37,936 nt of DNA, from the NCBI GenBank assembly GCA_005798335.1, contig SYJV01000451.1:1-37936 (forward strand), given 5' to 3'. Source of the stretch: Planctomycetaceae bacterium (lineage in GTDB: Bacteria; Planctomycetota; Planctomycetia; Pirellulales; Pirellulaceae). Positions within the stretch are counted from its first letter, which is position 1; each line of letters begins with the position of its first letter. Below the pieces are notes generated by a model. That model was not told where the DNA came from, searched no databases, and was given only the letters and a program-made list of their open reading frames with translations. Shown in pieces: positions 6,320 through 37,936 of the stretch. The position numbers and the translations under genes were made by a program.

Positions 6320-7312
6320 TTAATCATCGACGGTTACTACTTCACCACCTCGGGTTGTTCCCAGAGCTCGCCATGTATCCAAGTTGATACTATTGCTGAA
6401 GAACTTTACCGAGCCATCGCCCAGAGCGGCATTTACGCCACCGATATGGCGACTGCGCGCTGAGACAATTTGTTCGAAAACAGTCGGCGTAGCGCCAATA
6501 CACGGTGGATTTAGGCGATTCGCCGTCCGACAGTAGCTTGGCGCTTCCATGCGATCCGGAGCGGCAGAATTGGGAGGATTGTACGTTTCGAAATGCGAAC
6601 CACCTTGCCACCATGCAAATCCCCGTAGGTCGCCGTCCTTGCCTTGAATGGTCTCACCCAACACCAGAGTATTGCTCAGACCATCGGTCACACTCCCAAA
6701 GGTAGGCCAAGGCGGAATCTGCGATGGATGAATATTGGGTTTGTTCGCATGACCAACCGGCCAACCCAACAGACCAACGAACGGGGCACCGCCCCAGGTG
6801 TTTGGTCGTCCGGCAGTGTCCGTTCCAAACGTAAGGCGATTCAAAGTGGTATTCCCAAAATTTCCGACAATGTTGTGAAACGTGATGCCCGAAATGATGC
6901 TGGGCGAGGCCGAGATCGAGTCGCTGGGGCAAGTGAACGCTTGGACTTGGACCTTAGTTACCGCTTGGTTAACGACAGCAGAATATCCCGGAGGAGCAGG
7001 ACTGAATGAACCGTCAAAACCGTGTCCCACATAGAGCACCGCAAGATTCTTTTGCTCAAGATACGGCAAGACCGACACAAGCCAGGTACCCCAGCAGCAA
7101 CCATGCTGTCCCAGTGGATACTTCGCACTGTAGGTATCCGCATAATTGTGCAGCGCCAAAGCCGTCTGTTTGAAATTATTCGAACACTGCATTCGTCGAG
7201 CCGCTTCGCGAGCGGACTGAACCGCTGGCAACAGTAATCCGACCAGCACGCCAATAATGGCAATCACGACCAAAAGCTCGACCAGTGTGAACCCGTGCCC
7301 TTTCCTACGCAT
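6320..7312 (-). CDS. DUF1559 prepilin-like protein
   Basis: 330 residues from ATG 7312. [21 protein letters not shown] is the short basic leader plus prepilin helix, followed by [20 protein letters not shown]. The C-terminus has [20 protein letters not shown], the DUF1559 tail motif, and [21 protein letters not shown] in the middle. In contrast to the pair at 1141-2544, here the lipoprotein gene comes first (7386-7829) and this gene second, with 73 bases between. Role unknown; surface or pilus-like structure is inferred from the N-terminus. Confidence 0.93.
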
Positions 7313-7385
7313 ACATCACCTCAATTATCAATGCCTATGAAACAGTCACTACGACGAACGAACATTGAGCAGGTGCAACCGCTCG

Positions 7386-7829
7386 TCATTTGCGTTTGCT
7401 CGAAATATCATGCTGAAACTCAGTTGCACCCGACTCGGTAACTTCGATAAAATTTTTGCTGTTGGTATTCCAATTAGCTGGAATCAGTTCTTGCTGAGGC
7501 GTCCCGACTTCCTCTCCTGGAAATTTGCCTTCTGGTAACGTCATTCCTGTTCCTGGTTTGATCGCATTTACGACGACCCGATACTTGCCAGGCGGTAGCC
7601 CTTGGTCTTTGGAAATCGAGTACTTTCCGCCGACGATCATGTCACCACTGGAGGTGGTTGATTTCTCCACGGGCTCAAACGTAATGCTGCCGTCGGCGAG
7701 CGGTTTGCCATCTAGGTTCACTGTCCCCGAAATGGCTCTCCGCCCCAACCCGTCATCGCTCCCGCATCCCACCAACCCTGCGAGCATGCACGCAACCGCA
7801 ACAACAACCGAACTTCGACCGTGACTCAT
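7386..7829 (-). CDS. Carboxypeptidase-regulatory-like lipoprotein paired with DUF1559 protein
   Basis: 147 residues. Signal peptide with lipobox: VVAVACMLAGLVGCGSDDG (Cys at about residue 22). The body has the same layout as the other two lipoproteins of this kind in the window: ISGTVNLDGKPLADGSITFEP, then GGKYSI, GLPPGKYRVVV, and the PANWNTNSK stretch near the C-terminus that recurs as PANYNDQT in the copy at 13532-13978. It lies upstream of, and in the same orientation as, the DUF1559 gene at 6320-7312. Function unknown. Confidence 0.88.
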   Translation of the reverse strand: MSHGRSSVVVAVACMLAGLVGCGSDDGLGRRAISGTVNLDGKPLADGSITFEPVEKSTTSSGDMIVGGKYSISKDQGLPPGKYRVVVNAIKPGTGMTLPEGKFPGEEVGTPQQELIPANWNTNSKNFIEVTESGATEFQHDISSKRK

Positions 7830-12576: not shown

Positions 12577-13509
12577 ATGCGATCGAATCGTGCGTCTGGA
12601 TTTACACTTGTCGAACTGTTAGTCGTGATTGCGATTATCGGAGTCTTGGTTGGGTTGTTGTTGCCCGCCGTACAGGCTGCTCGTGAGGCGGCACGACGAA
12701 TGCAGTGTTCGAACAACCTTAAACAAATGGGGCTGGGTCTGCACAACTTCCACGACACCAGAAACCGCTTGCCCTCGGGCAGTTACTGGCCTTTGGGCTC
12801 AGGCGGCGACCGCAACGGCACCGAGGCCACCTGGATTACCCACCTCTTGCCGTTTGTCGAACAGGAGAACCTGTTCAAGACCGGTGACTTCACGCGCGGC
12901 TTTGGCAACGGCTCCGCGACGCATCCGAACACGCGCATCACCTCCACGTTCCTGCCGCTCTTTAAGTGTCCTTCGGACGTGGACGTCGAGCTGTCGGCCT
13001 GGGGTGCCTCGGTGGCCTGGGCTCGGGGCAACTACGCGGCCAACAACGGCATCGGCCCAATGACCGAGGTCACGGCCCCGGTCCTAACCCGACCGCAAGG
13101 CGTCTTCATGATGAACAGCCAGAACCGCTTGACCGACATCAAAGATGGCACGACGAACACGGTAATGGTGTCCGAATTGCTCAAGAGTCCGGGAGCCGCT
13201 GACTGGCGTGGAGTAATGCACTACCCCGAGGGGGCACTGTATCACCACAACCAAACGCCGAACAGTCCCGTGCCTGACGAGTTCCGCCGCAACATGTGTC
13301 TTACGATTCCCCGGGCACCTTGCATCCCGACGACGACCAGCTTTAGCCCGAAGCGGATCACCCTCACGGCCCGTAGTAACCACACCGGCGGAGTCAATGT
13401 GCTCCTGGGCGACGGCAGCGTGCATTTCGTCTCTAACAACATCAACCTGAGCACCTGGCGGGCACTGTCCTCGCCCAGCCTGGGCGAAGTGCTCGGCAGC
13501 GATTTCTAA
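12577..13509 (+). CDS. DUF1559 prepilin-like protein (island copy, GC-rich body)
   Basis: 310 residues from ATG 12577, with GGAGAG about 8 bases upstream as ribosome-binding site. [17 protein letters not shown] opens the prepilin helix, followed by [20 protein letters not shown]. The tail has TGGVNVLLGDGSVHFVSNNI. After about codon 50 the sequence becomes much richer in G+C at third positions than the host-style 5' end (42 of 60 bases G/C at 13021-13080), unlike the other two DUF1559 genes of the window. This points to acquisition with the island, or to a hybrid gene. The lipoprotein gene follows 22 bases later. Confidence 0.93.
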   Translation: MRSNRASGFTLVELLVVIAIIGVLVGLLLPAVQAAREAARRMQCSNNLKQMGLGLHNFHDTRNRLPSGSYWPLGSGGDRNGTEATWITHLLPFVEQENLFKTGDFTRGFGNGSATHPNTRITSTFLPLFKCPSDVDVELSAWGASVAWARGNYAANNGIGPMTEVTAPVLTRPQGVFMMNSQNRLTDIKDGTTNTVMVSELLKSPGAADWRGVMHYPEGALYHHNQTPNSPVPDEFRRNMCLTIPRAPCIPTTTSFSPKRITLTARSNHTGGVNVLLGDGSVHFVSNNINLSTWRALSSPSLGEVLGSDF

Positions 13510-13531
13510 GACCCTTCGCGGAAAGGCGAAT

Positions 13532-13978
13532 ATGACAATTCTGATGCGATGGAACTGGGCACGGGCTTCGTTGTCCCTGGCCTGCGGTGCCGCATTGCTC
13601 GTTGGTTGTGACGACGGCAAGGTGGAAATACGGGGCCTAGTCCAGTATGAGGAAAAGCCGCTCGAAGAGGGAATGATCACATTCGAGCCGGCCGACGGCA
13701 AGGGGCCATCGACCGGCGAAATGATTGCCAACGGCAAGTATGAGTTGACCGGCGATAAGAGAGCGATGCCGGGCGACAAGATCGTGCGTATCGTCGGAAT
13801 GCGCGCAACGGGGCGGAAGGTCCCCGCAGGCAGTCCCTCACCCCCCGGCACGATGATCGACGAGGTCATCCAGTGCATTCCCGCCAATTACAACGACCAG
13901 ACGACGCTCAACATCACTGTCACCCCTGGGAAGGCGAATACCCACGACTTCGACCTCAAGCTGGCCGGCGAACGCTGA
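13532..13978 (+). CDS. Carboxypeptidase-regulatory-like lipoprotein (island copy)
   Basis: 148 residues. Signal segment and lipobox: LACGAALLVGCDDGK (Cys near residue 26). The body follows the standard layout VEIRGLVQYEEKPLEEGMI, TFEPADGKG, MIANGKYEL and IPANYNDQTTLNITV. It is the downstream partner of the island DUF1559 gene (22-base gap) and shares its GC-rich composition. The C-terminal PANYNDQT corresponds to PANWNTNS in the copy at 7386-7829, which shows the lipoproteins are true homologues and not merely similar in layout. Function unknown. Confidence 0.88.
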   Translation: MTILMRWNWARASLSLACGAALLVGCDDGKVEIRGLVQYEEKPLEEGMITFEPADGKGPSTGEMIANGKYELTGDKRAMPGDKIVRIVGMRATGRKVPAGSPSPPGTMIDEVIQCIPANYNDQTTLNITVTPGKANTHDFDLKLAGER

Positions 13979-33135: not shown

Positions 33136-36100
33136 TTACACGACCGATTGGGATTCTGATTGCAGCAGTCGGTCTGCGCTCAGCCATGTTCGATCGACAC
33201 GGATGTGCAACCGTTGGGCCAACCGCAGCGTTTCGCCGTTTGGCCGCAACATCGTGGTGATGATTGCGGGCAAGTTTAATTCCGTGGCCTCGCAGATCAC
33301 GTACGGGGGCTCTCCTGCGCAAGAAGGAACAAGAGTGGTCAGGTCTTCGACAGCCTGGTTCTTCAGAAAACCTACTGCGTCGTTCGATTGTTCCGCATCG
33401 AGCATAAGCAATCGATGATGCCGGCCGCCGCATTCGGTCAATTGTGGATAGAACTCGCGCAGTTCATCGAGAGATTGGCTTGCATCCCCTTGCGCGTTAT
33501 CAAGGGATTCGAAATCGCTTTCTTTAAGTTTCATTTCGCTCATCATACGTCGAACTAAGTTTGACGCCAGTTGTAGCAGTTCGGGCAAACTCAAGTGGAT
33601 CGCCTGCGCCGCCGCTTTCCCTTTCGCTGAAGAGTCTGCCGGATTGCGACCCATAATGGACGCGAGTTGCTCTTGAAAACACTGTCCGGCGGCGTATTTT
33701 AGCACCGTCGAGTCCAGTACTGACGTGATGCGTTCGAATAGCTGCTTCCACTGAAAAGGCAAACCAACCGTCGCTGATACGTGCATTTTTGTTTTGCCAT
33801 CGCTCATCGATAGTTCGGCTTCGATCGAACCAGCCCAATTGCGAAGCTGCCGCGTGAGTTGCTCCACCGACTTGCGCAGGTTCTGCAATTCCACCAGCGC
33901 CACTTGGCACAAACGACGCAGATGATCTCGAAGCGCCTGAATCTCTAGTTTGTCGGGACGCTCGAACTGCTCGCGGCGATCGGTAATATAATTGGATAGG
34001 ACTTCCCCGTCGGTCTCGGATAAATCCACGACACGTGCGATGAACCGAATAAACAGCTTTTCAAGGCTCTCCCAGCTCAATCGCCGTTGTTCGAACAGGC
34101 CGCGAATCCACTTGCGCAGCCACGTTATTTCGTGCGAAATCTGCTGCGCATTCAGGGTCTGATCTAGCGAAATTCGGCGCGCGATCGTGGTGCAGGCTGT
34201 CGAATTCGTTTCGCGATGTATCGCGCTTGATTCGGTAGCATTTGCATCGTCGGAACTGGTGTCAGTGGTATGATGCAAGTCGAGATCGCGCAGAATTCTC
34301 GATATGTAGAGCTGCTCCATATCAGGAGTCAACGTCAGTTTACTATCGAACGAAACTTCAGTTTGCGATGCAACTGTCGAGTCCTTTACTCCACAGGAAA
34401 CGGGGGCCAAGAACCCGATACAGCGTTGCAATGCGCTATTGCAACACCAGCGCGCAAAGCGATGCAAGTTGGCATTCTGTGTAAAGCGAATCTTCGAAGT
34501 ACGCACCGTGCGCAGCCAAACGCGACTTTGCGAATCGTCACTCGTTTCTGTGGCGTGCGTTCTGATTTTATCCAATGTGCTACCGACCAATGTGTGACTA
34601 TCGATCCACACAGCGTCGGCGATCGTCTCCGGTGCATGTTGGGCGTTGCAGCCACCTTCATTGAGACCACCATCCACTAATGAGATCCAATCAAATGGTC
34701 GGCGTCCAGCTTCGCTGCCGGTGGACAAATTGGGACACAGCGGCGCGTAGACCGCTCCCGGGTACATCAGCTCGTCGATTTCCGATAAACACGAAATTGC
34801 GGCTGCTGCGCGCAGATTACTGCTCGCGTCGCCTGTCATCGTCGCCAGGGATATTAATCCCGAAAGGCGATAATCGGAATACTTCAGATTTCCCATGATT
34901 TGTCGAACGATGTAGGCGACTTCACACACCAAGGCGCTGCCAGTTCCGCCGTGCGCTGAACCGACAACGTAGACGCGCAGCGGCTCATTGACATCCTCAG
35001 CATCTAATTTCCTCTTGCGCGTGAGTTCCATTAGTTGCAGTGCAACGTTCTTGGCAACTAATTCGTAGTTATCCAGCAGTGCCAATGCGGCCAAAGGACG
35101 AACGCCTTCGGTTCGTTGCGTACGAGGGATGTTGTACAACCATCGTCGTGAGATAGGAGCAAAGCGGTCCAAGTCGCGGTTCCGATACTCCTGAGGCTTG
35201 TGCAATCGCAACAAGACAGTCTCGACAGAAGTTAGGCGTCCCGTCTTATCTTCGGAAACACAGGCATCAAGAGTCTCCGGGTCGGTATCGATTCCCAACC
35301 AACCATGATCGAAGATAGTGCGCCGACTGTCGACTCTTGAGTGCATTAGTTCGCGAAGCCTGTTGAGACTACGACAGCCAATGCCACCCAAGCCGATAAA
35401 CATACAGCGTGGAGCTTGCCAACCAATCGCGGACTCGGCTGCTGGTAGTCGTGGAGCCAACACTCGCGCGCCTCGTTGTTGGATTGCAGTCTGAGCCCAG
35501 GCAGTCTGCAGCATGCTTGAATGGCATGTGGCAGTCAGAGACTTACTCTCTGAATCGTCATCCGTTGTGACCCCAGGCCAGTTCCCAGGCCGTCCTTGAC
35601 TCGGTGGGATGTACGTAGATCCAACTTGCCTAAGTTTGTCAATAAACTCGCGGCAACTCCCATAACGGTCGCGAGGATGCTTGGCCAATGCTCGCGCCAC
35701 GATAGGACGGTCCGGCGGTGGCAGCGATTCCAGATCGGGCGCTTGCGAGAGGTGCTGGCGTGCAAGTTCACCGGTGGTACGGCCAGGAAAAGGAACCTTG
35801 CCAGTCAACATCTCGATGTAGACGATGCCCAGAGAATATTGGTCACTACGCAAGTCCGGCCGTCCATCGAACATTTCTGGCGCAGCGTAAATCGGTGTCA
35901 GCCCACTGATCATCGATTGATTTTGTTCGTGCAGATCTTTGATCAGTCCAAAGTCAGCGACTTTGATCCGGTCGGCAATCAACAAGAGATTCCCAGGCTT
36001 GACGTCGAGATGCTGTAAATTGTGTTTTTGCCACAAAAAGTCCAACGCGTCCGCGGTATCGCGCAGGAAATCCAGGAGTTGGTCACGCGGAATTCCATCC

Positions 36101-36432
36101 AGACCTTTGCGACGGCAGGCCTGATAGCGTTCCAGCAAATTGCTCTCGGCCAGTTCAGTCACGATCACCAGTTGGCGATCGACAATTTCGATACGTTCGA
36201 GAGACAATAGGAATGGGTGATGGACTGAGCGAATTCGCTGCAAGCTACGCAGTTCACCACTCGCGCGATCGTCGTCCAATGAGCCGAATACCAGCTTGAT
36301 GGCCTTCTGCAATCCACCTGGCGCGTCGGCAAGCCAAACTTCGCCGTAGCCGCCCGCACCCAGGCGATGCTTAAGCACATAGCCCGGAATTGGCTCAACG
36401 CCAGCTTGTGGAACGCTGCATACTCCGACCAT
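33136..36432 (-). CDS. Ser/Thr protein kinase fused to tubulin-like GTPase domain
   Basis: 1098 residues from ATG 36432. Kinase domain about 17-270: Gly-rich loop GAGGYGEVWL (25-34), K46 in AIKLVF, catalytic loop HLDVKPGNLL (141-150; Arg of HRD replaced by Leu), DFG at 160-162, YAAPEMFDGRPDLRSDQYSL. A polar linker follows to about 335. Then a tubulin/FtsZ-like Rossmann domain: PRCMFIGLGGIGCRSLNRL (341-359, nucleotide loop), GWLGIDTDPETLD, and a glycine-rich VVGSAHGGTGSALVCEV (489-505), comparable to the tubulin signature G-G-G-T-G-[ST]-G. The last 400 residues are mostly helical and unrecognised. Related bacterial Tubulin_2-like proteins exist, but the fusion with a kinase is uncommon. An AAA+ ATPase gene precedes it by 51 bases. 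Confidence 0.85.
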   Translation of the reverse strand: MVGVCSVPQAGVEPIPGYVLKHRLGAGGYGEVWLADAPGGLQKAIKLVFGSLDDDRASGELRSLQRIRSVHHPFLLSLERIEIVDRQLVIVTELAESNLLERYQACRRKGLDGIPRDQLLDFLRDTADALDFLWQKHNLQHLDVKPGNLLLIADRIKVADFGLIKDLHEQNQSMISGLTPIYAAPEMFDGRPDLRSDQYSLGIVYIEMLTGKVPFPGRTTGELARQHLSQAPDLESLPPPDRPIVARALAKHPRDRYGSCREFIDKLRQVGSTYIPPSQGRPGNWPGVTTDDDSESKSLTATCHSSMLQTAWAQTAIQQRGARVLAPRLPAAESAIGWQAPRCMFIGLGGIGCRSLNRLRELMHSRVDSRRTIFDHGWLGIDTDPETLDACVSEDKTGRLTSVETVLLRLHKPQEYRNRDLDRFAPISRRWLYNIPRTQRTEGVRPLAALALLDNYELVAKNVALQLMELTRKRKLDAEDVNEPLRVYVVGSAHGGTGSALVCEVAYIVRQIMGNLKYSDYRLSGLISLATMTGDASSNLRAAAAISCLSEIDELMYPGAVYAPLCPNLSTGSEAGRRPFDWISLVDGGLNEGGCNAQHAPETIADAVWIDSHTLVGSTLDKIRTHATETSDDSQSRVWLRTVRTSKIRFTQNANLHRFARWCCNSALQRCIGFLAPVSCGVKDSTVASQTEVSFDSKLTLTPDMEQLYISRILRDLDLHHTTDTSSDDANATESSAIHRETNSTACTTIARRISLDQTLNAQQISHEITWLRKWIRGLFEQRRLSWESLEKLFIRFIARVVDLSETDGEVLSNYITDRREQFERPDKLEIQALRDHLRRLCQVALVELQNLRKSVEQLTRQLRNWAGSIEAELSMSDGKTKMHVSATVGLPFQWKQLFERITSVLDSTVLKYAAGQCFQEQLASIMGRNPADSSAKGKAAAQAIHLSLPELLQLASNLVRRMMSEMKLKESDFESLDNAQGDASQSLDELREFYPQLTECGGRHHRLLMLDAEQSNDAVGFLKNQAVEDLTTLVPSCAGEPPYVICEATELNLPAIITTMLRPNGETLRLAQRLHIRVDRTWLSADRLLQSESQSVV

Positions 36433-36483
36433 CGTTCGCTCCGATTACTTGCTCGGCCTAACCTCAACGTGGCTTATCATCGA

Positions 36484-37936
36484 TCAATTCCCCAAGACAG
36501 CAGTTGCCACGGGAGAGGACACGCTCACGTTTCGAGGCAGAGTTACACAGTTTGCCGTGCGCTCCGGAGCGACTGGGGCCTGCACAACGTTCTCAGCTCC
36601 CAACGTGCCAAAGTAATTGCGACATGCATGCTGCAGGAAATCCAATCTTAGGTCCAGCGGTTCGCCTCGATACACGCAGAACGCTTTCACTTGAGTCAGC
36701 AAATCTCGTGCATGGCAACGCCGCATGGGTCGGCCAAAGCGTCGGTAGAAACTCTGAATGAATTGCTGTACAACTTCCGGGCGCCAGGGAAAACCCAAGG
36801 ACTGGCATGCTCGCCGGAAGAGGCCCGTAAATTCCGCTTCGCAAGGATTAGTAATCTCGATCTTAAAAGGGACTCGACGCAAGAATGCTTCGTCCACCAA
36901 GTCCTCTGGCTTCAAGTTTGTTGAGAATAGAATGATCTGTTCGAAAGGCATACAGATTTTCTTTCCCGTTGGTAGCGTGAGAAAATCCAAACGGCTTTCC
37001 AAAGGTACGATCCAGCGGTTCAGCAAGTCCTCTGGCGCAACGCGTTGTCTACCGAAATCATCGATTAGCAGACAGCCGCAGTTGCTTTTCAGTTGTAATG
37101 GCGCTTCGCACGTATTGCTACGCGCATCGTGCCGTACTTCTAAACTGTCGAGCGTAAGTTCGCCGCCGACGACCACCGTCGGACGTTCGATGCGAATCCA
37201 GCGGCGGTCAAAACTCTGGAAATTGCAAACTCGGCTGGAGTCGTGGCTCGTGTTTTCCGCTCGATGATAGGCGGGATCGTACAGCTTGATGATAATTCCG
37301 TCGTCCAACAGCGCATGCGGAATCCAGATTTTCTCGCCACGCAAAGCGGTTAAGCACTTGGCGAGAGTTGTCTTGCCATTGCCTGGAGGTCCGTACAGGA
37401 ATATGCCACTGTTGCTGTTCACAGCCGGTCCGAGAAAGTCGAGCCATGTTGGCTCGTACGATATATTCGACAGAGAGGCCATTAACTGGTCGCGACGAAT
37501 GGGTTCGTACTGGCTGGCCTGGGCTTCGACCGAGGTAATGTAATCGGCCAACGGAACTGGAGCGGGACCAATGTAACTAAATATCTTTTGGTGCCCCATT
37601 GCTCGTTTTTGACCGGCTTCGGTCAAACTATAGTAATAGTCGTTCAACGGCGCTGTACGAGCATGTGCAATCAATTGACGGGTGCGCAATGCGGCCATCT
37701 GCTGATCGATAATGCCGAAGGGCAATCCCAAGCGTTCGGCGACTTTACGCCCGCTGAGCGTTCCGGCGGCCAACAAGTGTTGGCAAATTAGCGATTCGAC
37801 AAGGACTTCGCTGAGACCCGCATCCTCCAGACTCGTTGGTTCGGGAGGGAAGTAGCTATCCTCGCTCAACACACTGGGCAGCGGTGCGACAGATACCGAG
37901 GCGGTATCGGTATTTAGAGTTGACGAATTGCGACTG
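36484..37936 (-). CDS. AAA+ ATPase with winged-helix-like N-terminus (5' end outside window)
   Basis: At least 462 residues. The frame is open to the window's edge; the first possible start inside is GTG 37872, so the true start is probably beyond 37936. N-terminal helix-turn-helix-like part: LICQHLLAAGTLSGRKVAER, LGLPFGIIDQQMAALRTRQL, YYYSLTEAGQKRAMG (winged-helix pattern), followed by YIGPAPVPLADY. Walker A is GIFLYGPPGNGKTTLAK, Walker B CGCLLIDDFGRQRV, sensor-like IILFSTNLKPEDLVDEAFLR and RRVPFKIE with arginine-finger candidates; RRCHARDLLTQVKAF near the C-terminus. The gene and the kinase/tubulin-like gene lie in one direction 51 bases apart, probably one operon. No exact function known. 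Confidence 0.87.
   Translation of the reverse strand, partial: SRNSSTLNTDTASVSVAPLPSVLSEDSYFPPEPTSLEDAGLSEVLVESLICQHLLAAGTLSGRKVAERLGLPFGIIDQQMAALRTRQLIAHARTAPLNDYYYSLTEAGQKRAMGHQKIFSYIGPAPVPLADYITSVEAQASQYEPIRRDQLMASLSNISYEPTWLDFLGPAVNSNSGIFLYGPPGNGKTTLAKCLTALRGEKIWIPHALLDDGIIIKLYDPAYHRAENTSHDSSRVCNFQSFDRRWIRIERPTVVVGGELTLDSLEVRHDARSNTCEAPLQLKSNCGCLLIDDFGRQRVAPEDLLNRWIVPLESRLDFLTLPTGKKICMPFEQIILFSTNLKPEDLVDEAFLRRVPFKIEITNPCEAEFTGLFRRACQSLGFPWRPEVVQQFIQSFYRRFGRPMRRCHARDLLTQVKAFCVYRGEPLDLRLDFLQHACRNYFGTLGAENVVQAPVAPERTANCVTLPRNVSVSSPVATAVLGN

Follow-up and report, generated by a model that had tools for sequence, protein, structure and literature searches.

At one end of a 37,936-nucleotide contig of a Planctomycetaceae bacterium (GenBank SYJV01000451.1, assembly GCA_005798335.1), referred to in the following as the window, a gene for an AAA+ ATPase is followed on the minus strand by a gene for a Ser/Thr kinase fused to a tubulin-like domain of the FtsZl1 (Tubulin_2) family. 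We interpret this locus as one case of a conserved three-gene signalling module of the planctomycete class, which comprises the fusion protein, the AAA+ ATPase and a protein with FHA and EAL domains and would act as a soluble phospho-relay to cyclic di-GMP (c-di-GMP) on a tubulin-like scaffold; the probability of this interpretation is, in our estimate, about 0.55. The domains, conserved residues, linkage and co-occurrence of the module are direct observations, and the conservation of the fusion, whose part comprising residues 325–1098 has relatives in 132 of 199 family genomes (mostly with one match per genome), is far beyond chance. The third conserved gene (FHA-EAL), which lay outside the view of a preceding interpretation of the window made without database searches (the sequence-only reading), points to c-di-GMP signalling.

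The window comprises an entire contig (C416) of an 8.46 Mb assembly in 558 contigs. Its minus-strand end, to which all gene coordinates below refer, holds the open reading frame (ORF) of the AAA+ ATPase (36484–37935), 51 bases and the ORF of the fusion protein (33136–36432). The 5′ start of the AAA+ gene lies outside the window because the gene is cut by the contig end. An FHA-EAL gene is to be expected in the source organism, since its position in relatives, next after the AAA+ gene, would fall beyond the contig end that cuts this gene. The whole fusion protein matches 63 places of its own genome including itself, nearly all via the kinase, and the fusion locus is the single Tubulin_2 match found there by profile search.

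The kinase-FtsZl1 fusion protein

The 1098-residue ORF contains the HLD (141–143), GLGGIG (347–352) and GGTGS (495–499) motifs as given by the sequence-only reading, and the complete-looking Ser/Thr kinase described there is confirmed by a match of residues 18–256 (35665–36381) to the Pfam kinase profile PF00069 with E = 7.8e-30, above the cut-off. The residues checked were the Gly loop, the VAIK Lys, the C-helix Glu, HxD, DFG and APE, which we take to be the relevant set. The Lys, the Glu, HxD, the Asn and the Asp of DFG are kept in 74 of 75 aligned fusions, the remaining row being gapped at the early sites. All 74 carry HLD in place of HRD and are thus of the non-RD type; the Phe of DFG is changed to Tyr in two. 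Judged by the residues kept, the domain is predicted to be an active Hanks-type Ser/Thr kinase.

The tubulin-like nature proposed for the second half is borne out by the Tubulin_2 profile PF13809 (residues 345–649, 34486–35400; E = 1.6e-21, 77.4 bits against a cut-off of 27) and by an AlphaFold model of residues 336–1098, which was calculated with 61 relatives and reached a mean pLDDT (predicted local distance difference test) of 85.1 and a pTM (predicted template modelling score) of 0.78. When this predicted model was compared with the PDB by Foldseek, the 50 best of 943 matches were all tubulin-superfamily entries or tubulin assemblies, the matching chain of the latter being taken as tubulin from its length; the matches listed include CetZ, TubZ, gamma- and beta-tubulin, PhuZ and FtsZ, with a best E of 5.7e-6 and 17 at E ≤ 0.001. 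When the C-terminal part was compared by profile with solved structures, mostly helical-bundle and coiled-coil proteins were matched, together with one CetZ (3zid, E = 0.03).

Conservation was analysed in an alignment of the window protein with 61 of the 74 collected fusions; as in all alignments of this work, truncated, mis-started and near-duplicate sequences were omitted, together with a few others to limit size. In the T1 nucleotide loop (GLGGIG, 35377–35394) the second glycine (G14) is present in 62/62, the first and third in 50/62 and the last in 33/62, with Ala in 29. In the T4 loop (GGTGS, 34936–34950), G160 is present in 62, G161 in 61, T162 in 48, G163 in 57 and S164 in 49 of the 62 sequences (model numbering). 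Within the segment SRRWLYNIP (residues 428–436, 35125–35151) the subfamily signature R-R-W-x-Y-N-x-P is invariant in 62/62, part of it being the search pattern of the named-genome scan described below, so that loci from that scan were selected by it. The motif RLxxRxDxxW near the C-terminus (residues 1074–1083, 33184–33213) shows, again in model numbering, R739 in 62/62, R743 in 61/62, D745 in 57/62 and W748 in 59/62. A predicted coiled-coil or helical insertion, recognised from long helices within positions 368–666 of the model, occupies residues 703–1001 (33430–34326). The model strands 669–676, 697–701 and 709–715 may complete the tubulin C-terminal sheet begun by 305–314, with the coiled coil inserted between them, and the order of elements in the model fits such a split sheet. 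Median identity to the window protein amounts to 59% for the kinase, 30% for the tubulin core and 11.6% for the helical region (residues 676–995). On the basis of the fold, the T1 and T4 glycines and the conserved motifs, the second half is therefore assigned to FtsZl1. Membership in the canonical FtsZ/tubulin family was rejected, as the profile search gave no PF00091 match for the window protein and a T7-type acidic residue (D276, located by the order of elements) is present in only 33/62; one relative (L112) matched PF00091 weakly (2.3e-4), below the cut-off.

Partner genes, linkage and co-occurrence

The sequence-only reading had also noted an AAA+ ATPase with a winged-helix-like N-terminus 51 bases upstream of the fusion, and the ORF found at this place indeed carries the Walker A motif GPPGNGKTT (37366–37392) and the Walker B motif LLIDDFG (37051–37071). 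Across the window protein and 44 of 53 collected AAA+ sequences, G-x-P-G-N-G-K and DDFG are invariant (45/45), and a sensor-1-like Asn and LRR arginines, presumably the sensor and finger residues, are nearly or fully so. The core has a median identity to the window protein of 59%, equal to that of the kinase. In the predicted structure (pLDDT 84.7) the helix/strand order of AAA+ residues 43–104 (37624–37809) looks like that of a winged helix, the name being a reading of predicted secondary structure. No Pfam or NCBIfam model matched the window AAA+ above its cut-off; membership in AAA_5, the profile which the sequence-only reading had suggested as a check, was rejected (E = 0.064, 13.7 bits against a cut-off of 22), as was membership in the anti-phage system IetAS (IetA 29.4 bits against a curated 510). 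The 50 best of 1971 fold matches include 8p49 (P. furiosus Q8U0N8, E = 6.1e-13), BchI (3e-10), NorQ (1.7e-7), Lon and RuvB; a literature search on Q8U0N8 found nothing.

In a tree of 101 distinct AAA+ sequences, a paralogue clade of 12 members (support 1.0) separates from 89 others. A fusion was found in 0/12 of the stretches fetched around the paralogues, while 73 of the 89 others adjoin a fusion, 10 share a stretch with one and 6 are without a recognised fusion there. The orthologue occurs in 45 of 248 class genomes, all 45 with Tubulin_2, at a cut of E ≤ 1e-138 that was set after viewing the list; the tree supports the two clades rather than the exact cut, and the best paralogue-like match (5.5e-139, a second match in G079, which also has an orthologue) sits at it. 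The family as a whole (orthologue or paralogue, E ≤ 1e-60) was detected in 21 of 294 sampled phylum genomes, of which 20 belong to the class. The source genome encodes another member of the family elsewhere (C529:27905–29173), with 46% identity to the window AAA+; second copies of this kind are frequent among relatives, and no fusion lies near those that were fetched.

The third family, represented by a member at locus L083, combines an FHA domain (7e-19) with an EAL domain (3e-40). In an alignment of 50 of the 57 sequences collected, the G-R, S, H and N residues, which we take to be the FHA set, are kept in 50/50, and in this respect the partner protein of the relatives is a predicted phosphothreonine reader. 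The eight residues that we assume to form the catalytic set of EAL are intact in 38/50, as expected of a putative c-di-GMP phosphodiesterase; of the 12 altered proteins, 11 form one clade (support 1.0) and L177 is altered at one site. Given 50/50 for FHA against 38/50 for EAL, it is the predicted phosphothreonine reading that stays constant in the third protein, and c-di-GMP breakdown appears to be its usual yet dispensable part. One lineage has a further protein in its module, belonging to the fourth-ranked neighbour family (7/41 neighbourhoods), of which the member checked is a REC-GGDEF-CBS protein. The GG(D/E)EF motif is present in 1 of 18 members checked. Such a neighbour stands beside 10/12 altered EALs and, among the 38 intact ones, only at L196 and L206, where the GGDEF matches are weak and lie further downstream. 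Since 11 of the 12 altered EALs belong to one clade, the link between EAL loss and the GGDEF neighbour amounts to about one event. The loci L163, L173, L178, L185, L191, L201, L207, L208, L209 and L210, all of one clade, carry next to the fusion a catalytically degenerate EAL and a REC-GGDEF-CBS protein that is itself mostly degenerate.

The conservation of the gene pair, on which the sequence-only reading had staked its interpretation, is documented by an AAA+ gene at most 2.5 kb upstream and on the same strand in 98 of the 132 family genomes with the fusion part; FHA-EAL occurs in 125/199, and 86 of 87 close AAA+/FHA-EAL pairs are divergent. Across the 199 genomes, 114 have both fusion part and FHA-EAL, 18 the fusion part only, 10 FHA-EAL only and 57 neither. 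At least three of the 18 (G005, G090 and G293, with loci L108, L110 and L099) do hold a diverged FHA-EAL beside the fusion. These counts refer to the listed rows, from which AAA+ matches less significant than about E 4e-138, a second match in G285 and most secondary fusion fragments were omitted; the FHA-EAL genome G279 has no listed row, and its inclusion would change 114/18 to 115/17.

All-against-all clustering of the ORFs of 41 neighbourhoods (the window and 40 around fusion or Tubulin_2 matches, picked for spread and not at random) ranked the fusion first with 39, by construction, followed by AAA+ with 29, FHA-EAL with 28 and the next family with 7. A single-protein scan of genome contigs matched 25 stretches and confirmed no relative; an alignment scan of named genomes worked and gave 134 candidates, mostly labelled Pirellulales or Planctomycetota. 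Among the best 80 of these loci, several of them short or cut by contig ends, 78 have the fusion (76 kinase-fused), 53 AAA+, 58 FHA-EAL and 46 both partners. With T for fusion, A for AAA+, F for FHA-EAL, G for GGDEF-type and arrows for the strand, the gene orders are <F A>T> in 34 loci, T alone in 9, A>T>F> and <G F>T> in 6 each, A>T> in 5, A><G F>T> and <G T> in 4 each, and others in one or two. In f16, a family of another order of the class, 9 of 11 fetched fusion regions have an F>A>T> operon (L228–L230, L232, L233 and L235–L238); L231 is <F A>T>, and L234 appears as A>T> by the simple ORF caller, which missed genes such as its FHA-EAL (present in the class listing) and the AAA+ of L144 and L145. 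In f18, L239 has T>A>F> and L240 is a split locus. The same partners thus recur in at least five gene orders and at least two planctomycete orders.

Tubulin_2 was found in 112 of 248 class genomes. Outside the families f17 and f20, 52 genomes have Tubulin_2, of which 45 have the AAA+ orthologue and 40 FHA-EAL. In f16, counted as the 66 genomes visible in the class listings, the orthologue occurs in 11 of 12 Tubulin_2 genomes and 0 of 54 others, the exception (G037) being of a kinase-less type. This kinase-less Tubulin_2 (L121, 1410–7780) stands beside a putative secreted vWA protein, read from the sequence and not by profile, and shows the classic FtsZl1 setting within the same class. Kinase-Tubulin_2 fusions of other families are found at L118 (7495–14753, two in tandem), L119 (7612–11307) and L120 (7195–10614); they have neither AAA+ nor FHA-EAL in the fetched stretch, lack the RRWxYNxP signature and probably form a separate branch. 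All three genes are present in two cultivated Pirellulales, Rhodopirellula baltica (L182) and Lacipirellula limnantheis (L175). In R. baltica (L182, 9642–10598) a gene with an HDOD domain follows the fusion. Elsewhere in the window, a two-gene cassette of a DUF1559 protein with N-terminal methylation motif (PF07596, PF07963) and a partner of about 145 residues occurs three times (1141–2583, 6320–7829 and 12577–13978).

Proposed mechanism and alternative explanations

Kinase residues kept in 74/75 fusions and FHA residues in 50/50 partners support a phospho-signalling module, as does the finding that the kinase and the AAA+ core are better conserved than the tubulin core and the coiled coil. 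For this module we propose the following scenario. The FtsZl1 part would bind nucleotide and oligomerise via its tubulin core and the long coiled coil, thereby bringing the kinase domains together, which might then phosphorylate threonines on themselves or on partner proteins. The FHA domain would dock onto these phosphothreonines and place or switch the EAL domain, which would degrade c-di-GMP or, in the clade that has lost residues, could only sense it or serve as a scaffold. The AAA+ ATPase, presumably of the complex-remodelling kind, would assemble or dismantle the oligomer. The output would be a local control of c-di-GMP, plausibly serving the change between sessile cells and motile or budding ones, which is speculation. 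More tentatively, and in our view clearly less probable than the module as such, one may imagine a cytoskeletal element of bacteria without FtsZ: a tubulin-like polymer with built-in kinases, which a dedicated AAA+ motor would take apart and which would recruit a c-di-GMP phosphodiesterase able to read phosphothreonine, so that its state of assembly would be translated into a local second-messenger signal. The conserved partners make the long-unknown function of the kinase-fused branch testable as a signalling module, in a bacterium without detectable FtsZ.

Several observations weigh against this interpretation. The loss of EAL residues in the 11-member clade and the alteration in L177 mean that c-di-GMP breakdown is not universal, and the poorly conserved T7-type acid makes GTP hydrolysis doubtful. 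An FHA-EAL gene was not found in the source assembly, where the best partial matches lie at two different places (FHA part 8.2e-12 on C115, EAL part 9.1e-12 on C28); the contig end may explain this absence. Outside f17 and f20, the AAA+ orthologue was not found in 7/52 and FHA-EAL in 12/52 of the Tubulin_2 genomes, and Tubulin_2 is lacking in 22 of the 62 class genomes that carry FHA-EAL, so that part of the FHA-EAL family stands apart from the module; in f16, FHA-EAL occurs in 31/66 genomes and Tubulin_2 in 12/66. The 60 Tubulin_2 genomes of f17 and f20 have no AAA+ orthologue and FHA-EAL in only two, and 9 of the 78 named fusion loci have neither partner in the fetched stretch, some of them being contig ends. 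Finally, none of the co-occurrence figures takes shared ancestry into account.

The last point leads to mere co-inheritance of neighbouring genes without a shared pathway, since related genomes share gene order by descent; the recurrence of the same partners in different gene orders and taxonomic orders, and the restriction of the f16 orthologue to Tubulin_2 genomes (11/12 versus 0/54), render it very improbable. The strongest rival, a possibility to be taken seriously if still the lesser one, sees in the FtsZl1 part a degenerate tubulin which has lost both polymerisation and GTP hydrolysis and whose sole role is to dimerise the kinase as a scaffold or to regulate it. This would account for the much faster divergence of the tubulin core compared to the kinase (30% versus 59% median identity) and for the variable T7-type Asp (33/62) and T4 Thr (48/62), and it accords with the 2010 description of the family, in which T6-H7 could not be found and the absence of filaments was allowed for (PMC2875224). 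The near-invariant T1 and T4 glycines (G14 and G160 in 62/62, G161 in 61/62) are, however, those expected of a nucleotide binder, and the predicted model retains the tubulin fold. This rival and the phospho-relay proposed here overlap and are compatible with each other, since the relay requires a scaffold and could do without GTP hydrolysis.

A membrane-remodelling or vesicle system, as FtsZl1 was read in 2010 from the vWA, GTPase and OmpA genes that adjoin it in other lineages (PMC2875224), appears unlikely for the kinase-fused branch. No stretch of transmembrane strength was found in the fusion, the AAA+ ATPase and one FHA-EAL protein (19-residue maxima 1.1–1.4), and a Pfam search of 10 neighbours at five loci showed no vWA or OmpA domain, 3 of the 10 being without any Pfam match; the membrane trafficking suggested by the sequence-only reading is therefore without direct support. 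The vWA-linked Tubulin_2 of the class (L121), moreover, looks like a different, kinase-less subfamily. Marginally less likely still is a role in anti-phage defence or biological conflict, with NTPase and kinase as the working parts: the AAA+ is weakly similar to IetA (45/45 members match, best E 3.4e-8) and the kinase to defence kinases, and tubulin-containing conflict systems occur in other phyla (PMC7159879). Against it stand the low IetA score of the window AAA+ (29.4 versus 510 bits), the absence of a protease domain among the same 10 neighbours (again with 3 lacking any Pfam match) and the occurrence, mostly as one match per genome, in two thirds of the family genomes sampled. That the fusion takes the place of FtsZ in division or budding is hardly likely. 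The PF00091 search was indeed negative in the source genome and positive in 13 of 14 control genomes, but 136 of 248 class genomes have no Tubulin_2 match at E ≤ 0.001, including single-contig, 99%-complete genomes such as G011, and so have 54 of the 66 listed f16 genomes, which makes a general replacement of FtsZ unlikely. The sequence-only reading is thus upheld with regard to the tubulin-like half, the conserved gene pair and the lacking PF00091 match, and is without direct support with regard to membrane trafficking; a general replacement of FtsZ was rejected.

Relation to known systems

The kinase-tubulin fusion itself is already known. Makarova and Koonin reported four planctomycete FtsZl1 members with an N-terminal kinase in 2010 (PMC2875224), the kinase-fused form was mentioned again in 2023 (PMC9871819), FtsZl1 is listed for Gemmata massiliana (PMC4672568), and a 2024 survey found the tubulin-like domain to be the commonest associated domain among those confined to cytoplasmic kinases in Planctomycetota (PMC11032199). 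The latter kinases are cytoplasmic and tubulin-like as here; gene neighbourhood, AAA+ and FHA-EAL partners are not mentioned in the accessible text of that survey. With FtsZl1 as defined in 2010 the fusion shares the PF13809 domain, the long coiled coil and the C-terminal domain, while the focus of that paper is on vWA, GTPase and OmpA partners, with no FHA and one AAA (chelatases) in the main text as available (PMC2875224). An operon with vWA, GTPase or OmpA-type proteins is described there as a majority trend and not as a strict criterion, and filament formation as unproven for the whole family. For the kinase-fused branch, an operon of this type was rejected (vWA or OmpA in 0/10 neighbours from five loci, 3 without Pfam match).

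With CetZ, TubZ, FtsZ and tubulin the fusion shares the predicted fold (best match CetZ 3zid, E = 5.7e-6) and the T1 and T4 loops; it differs from them by the coiled-coil insertion, the fused kinase and the lack of a conserved T7-type Asp, and its identity to CetZ is about 14%. The window AAA+ has a predicted fold in common with MoxR/NorQ (NorQ being MoxR-type), RuvB, BchI and P. furiosus Q8U0N8 (8p49), but is only 11–17% identical to them in the listed rows, has a winged-helix-like N-terminal domain and passes the cut-off of no model. The set of fusion, dedicated AAA+ clade and FHA-EAL appears to be new, as no published description of it was found in the literature searched, which did not extend to the supplements of PMC2875224 that list context families. 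One of its elements was touched upon in 2010, when a referee pointed out that the Pirellula staleyi gene has a diguanylate phosphodiesterase as its neighbour and the authors considered neighbours of this kind too infrequent to be taken into account (PMC2875224). The association with c-di-GMP neighbours is widespread and occurs in several gene orders, and the wide sampling presented here answers this printed disagreement between referee and authors.

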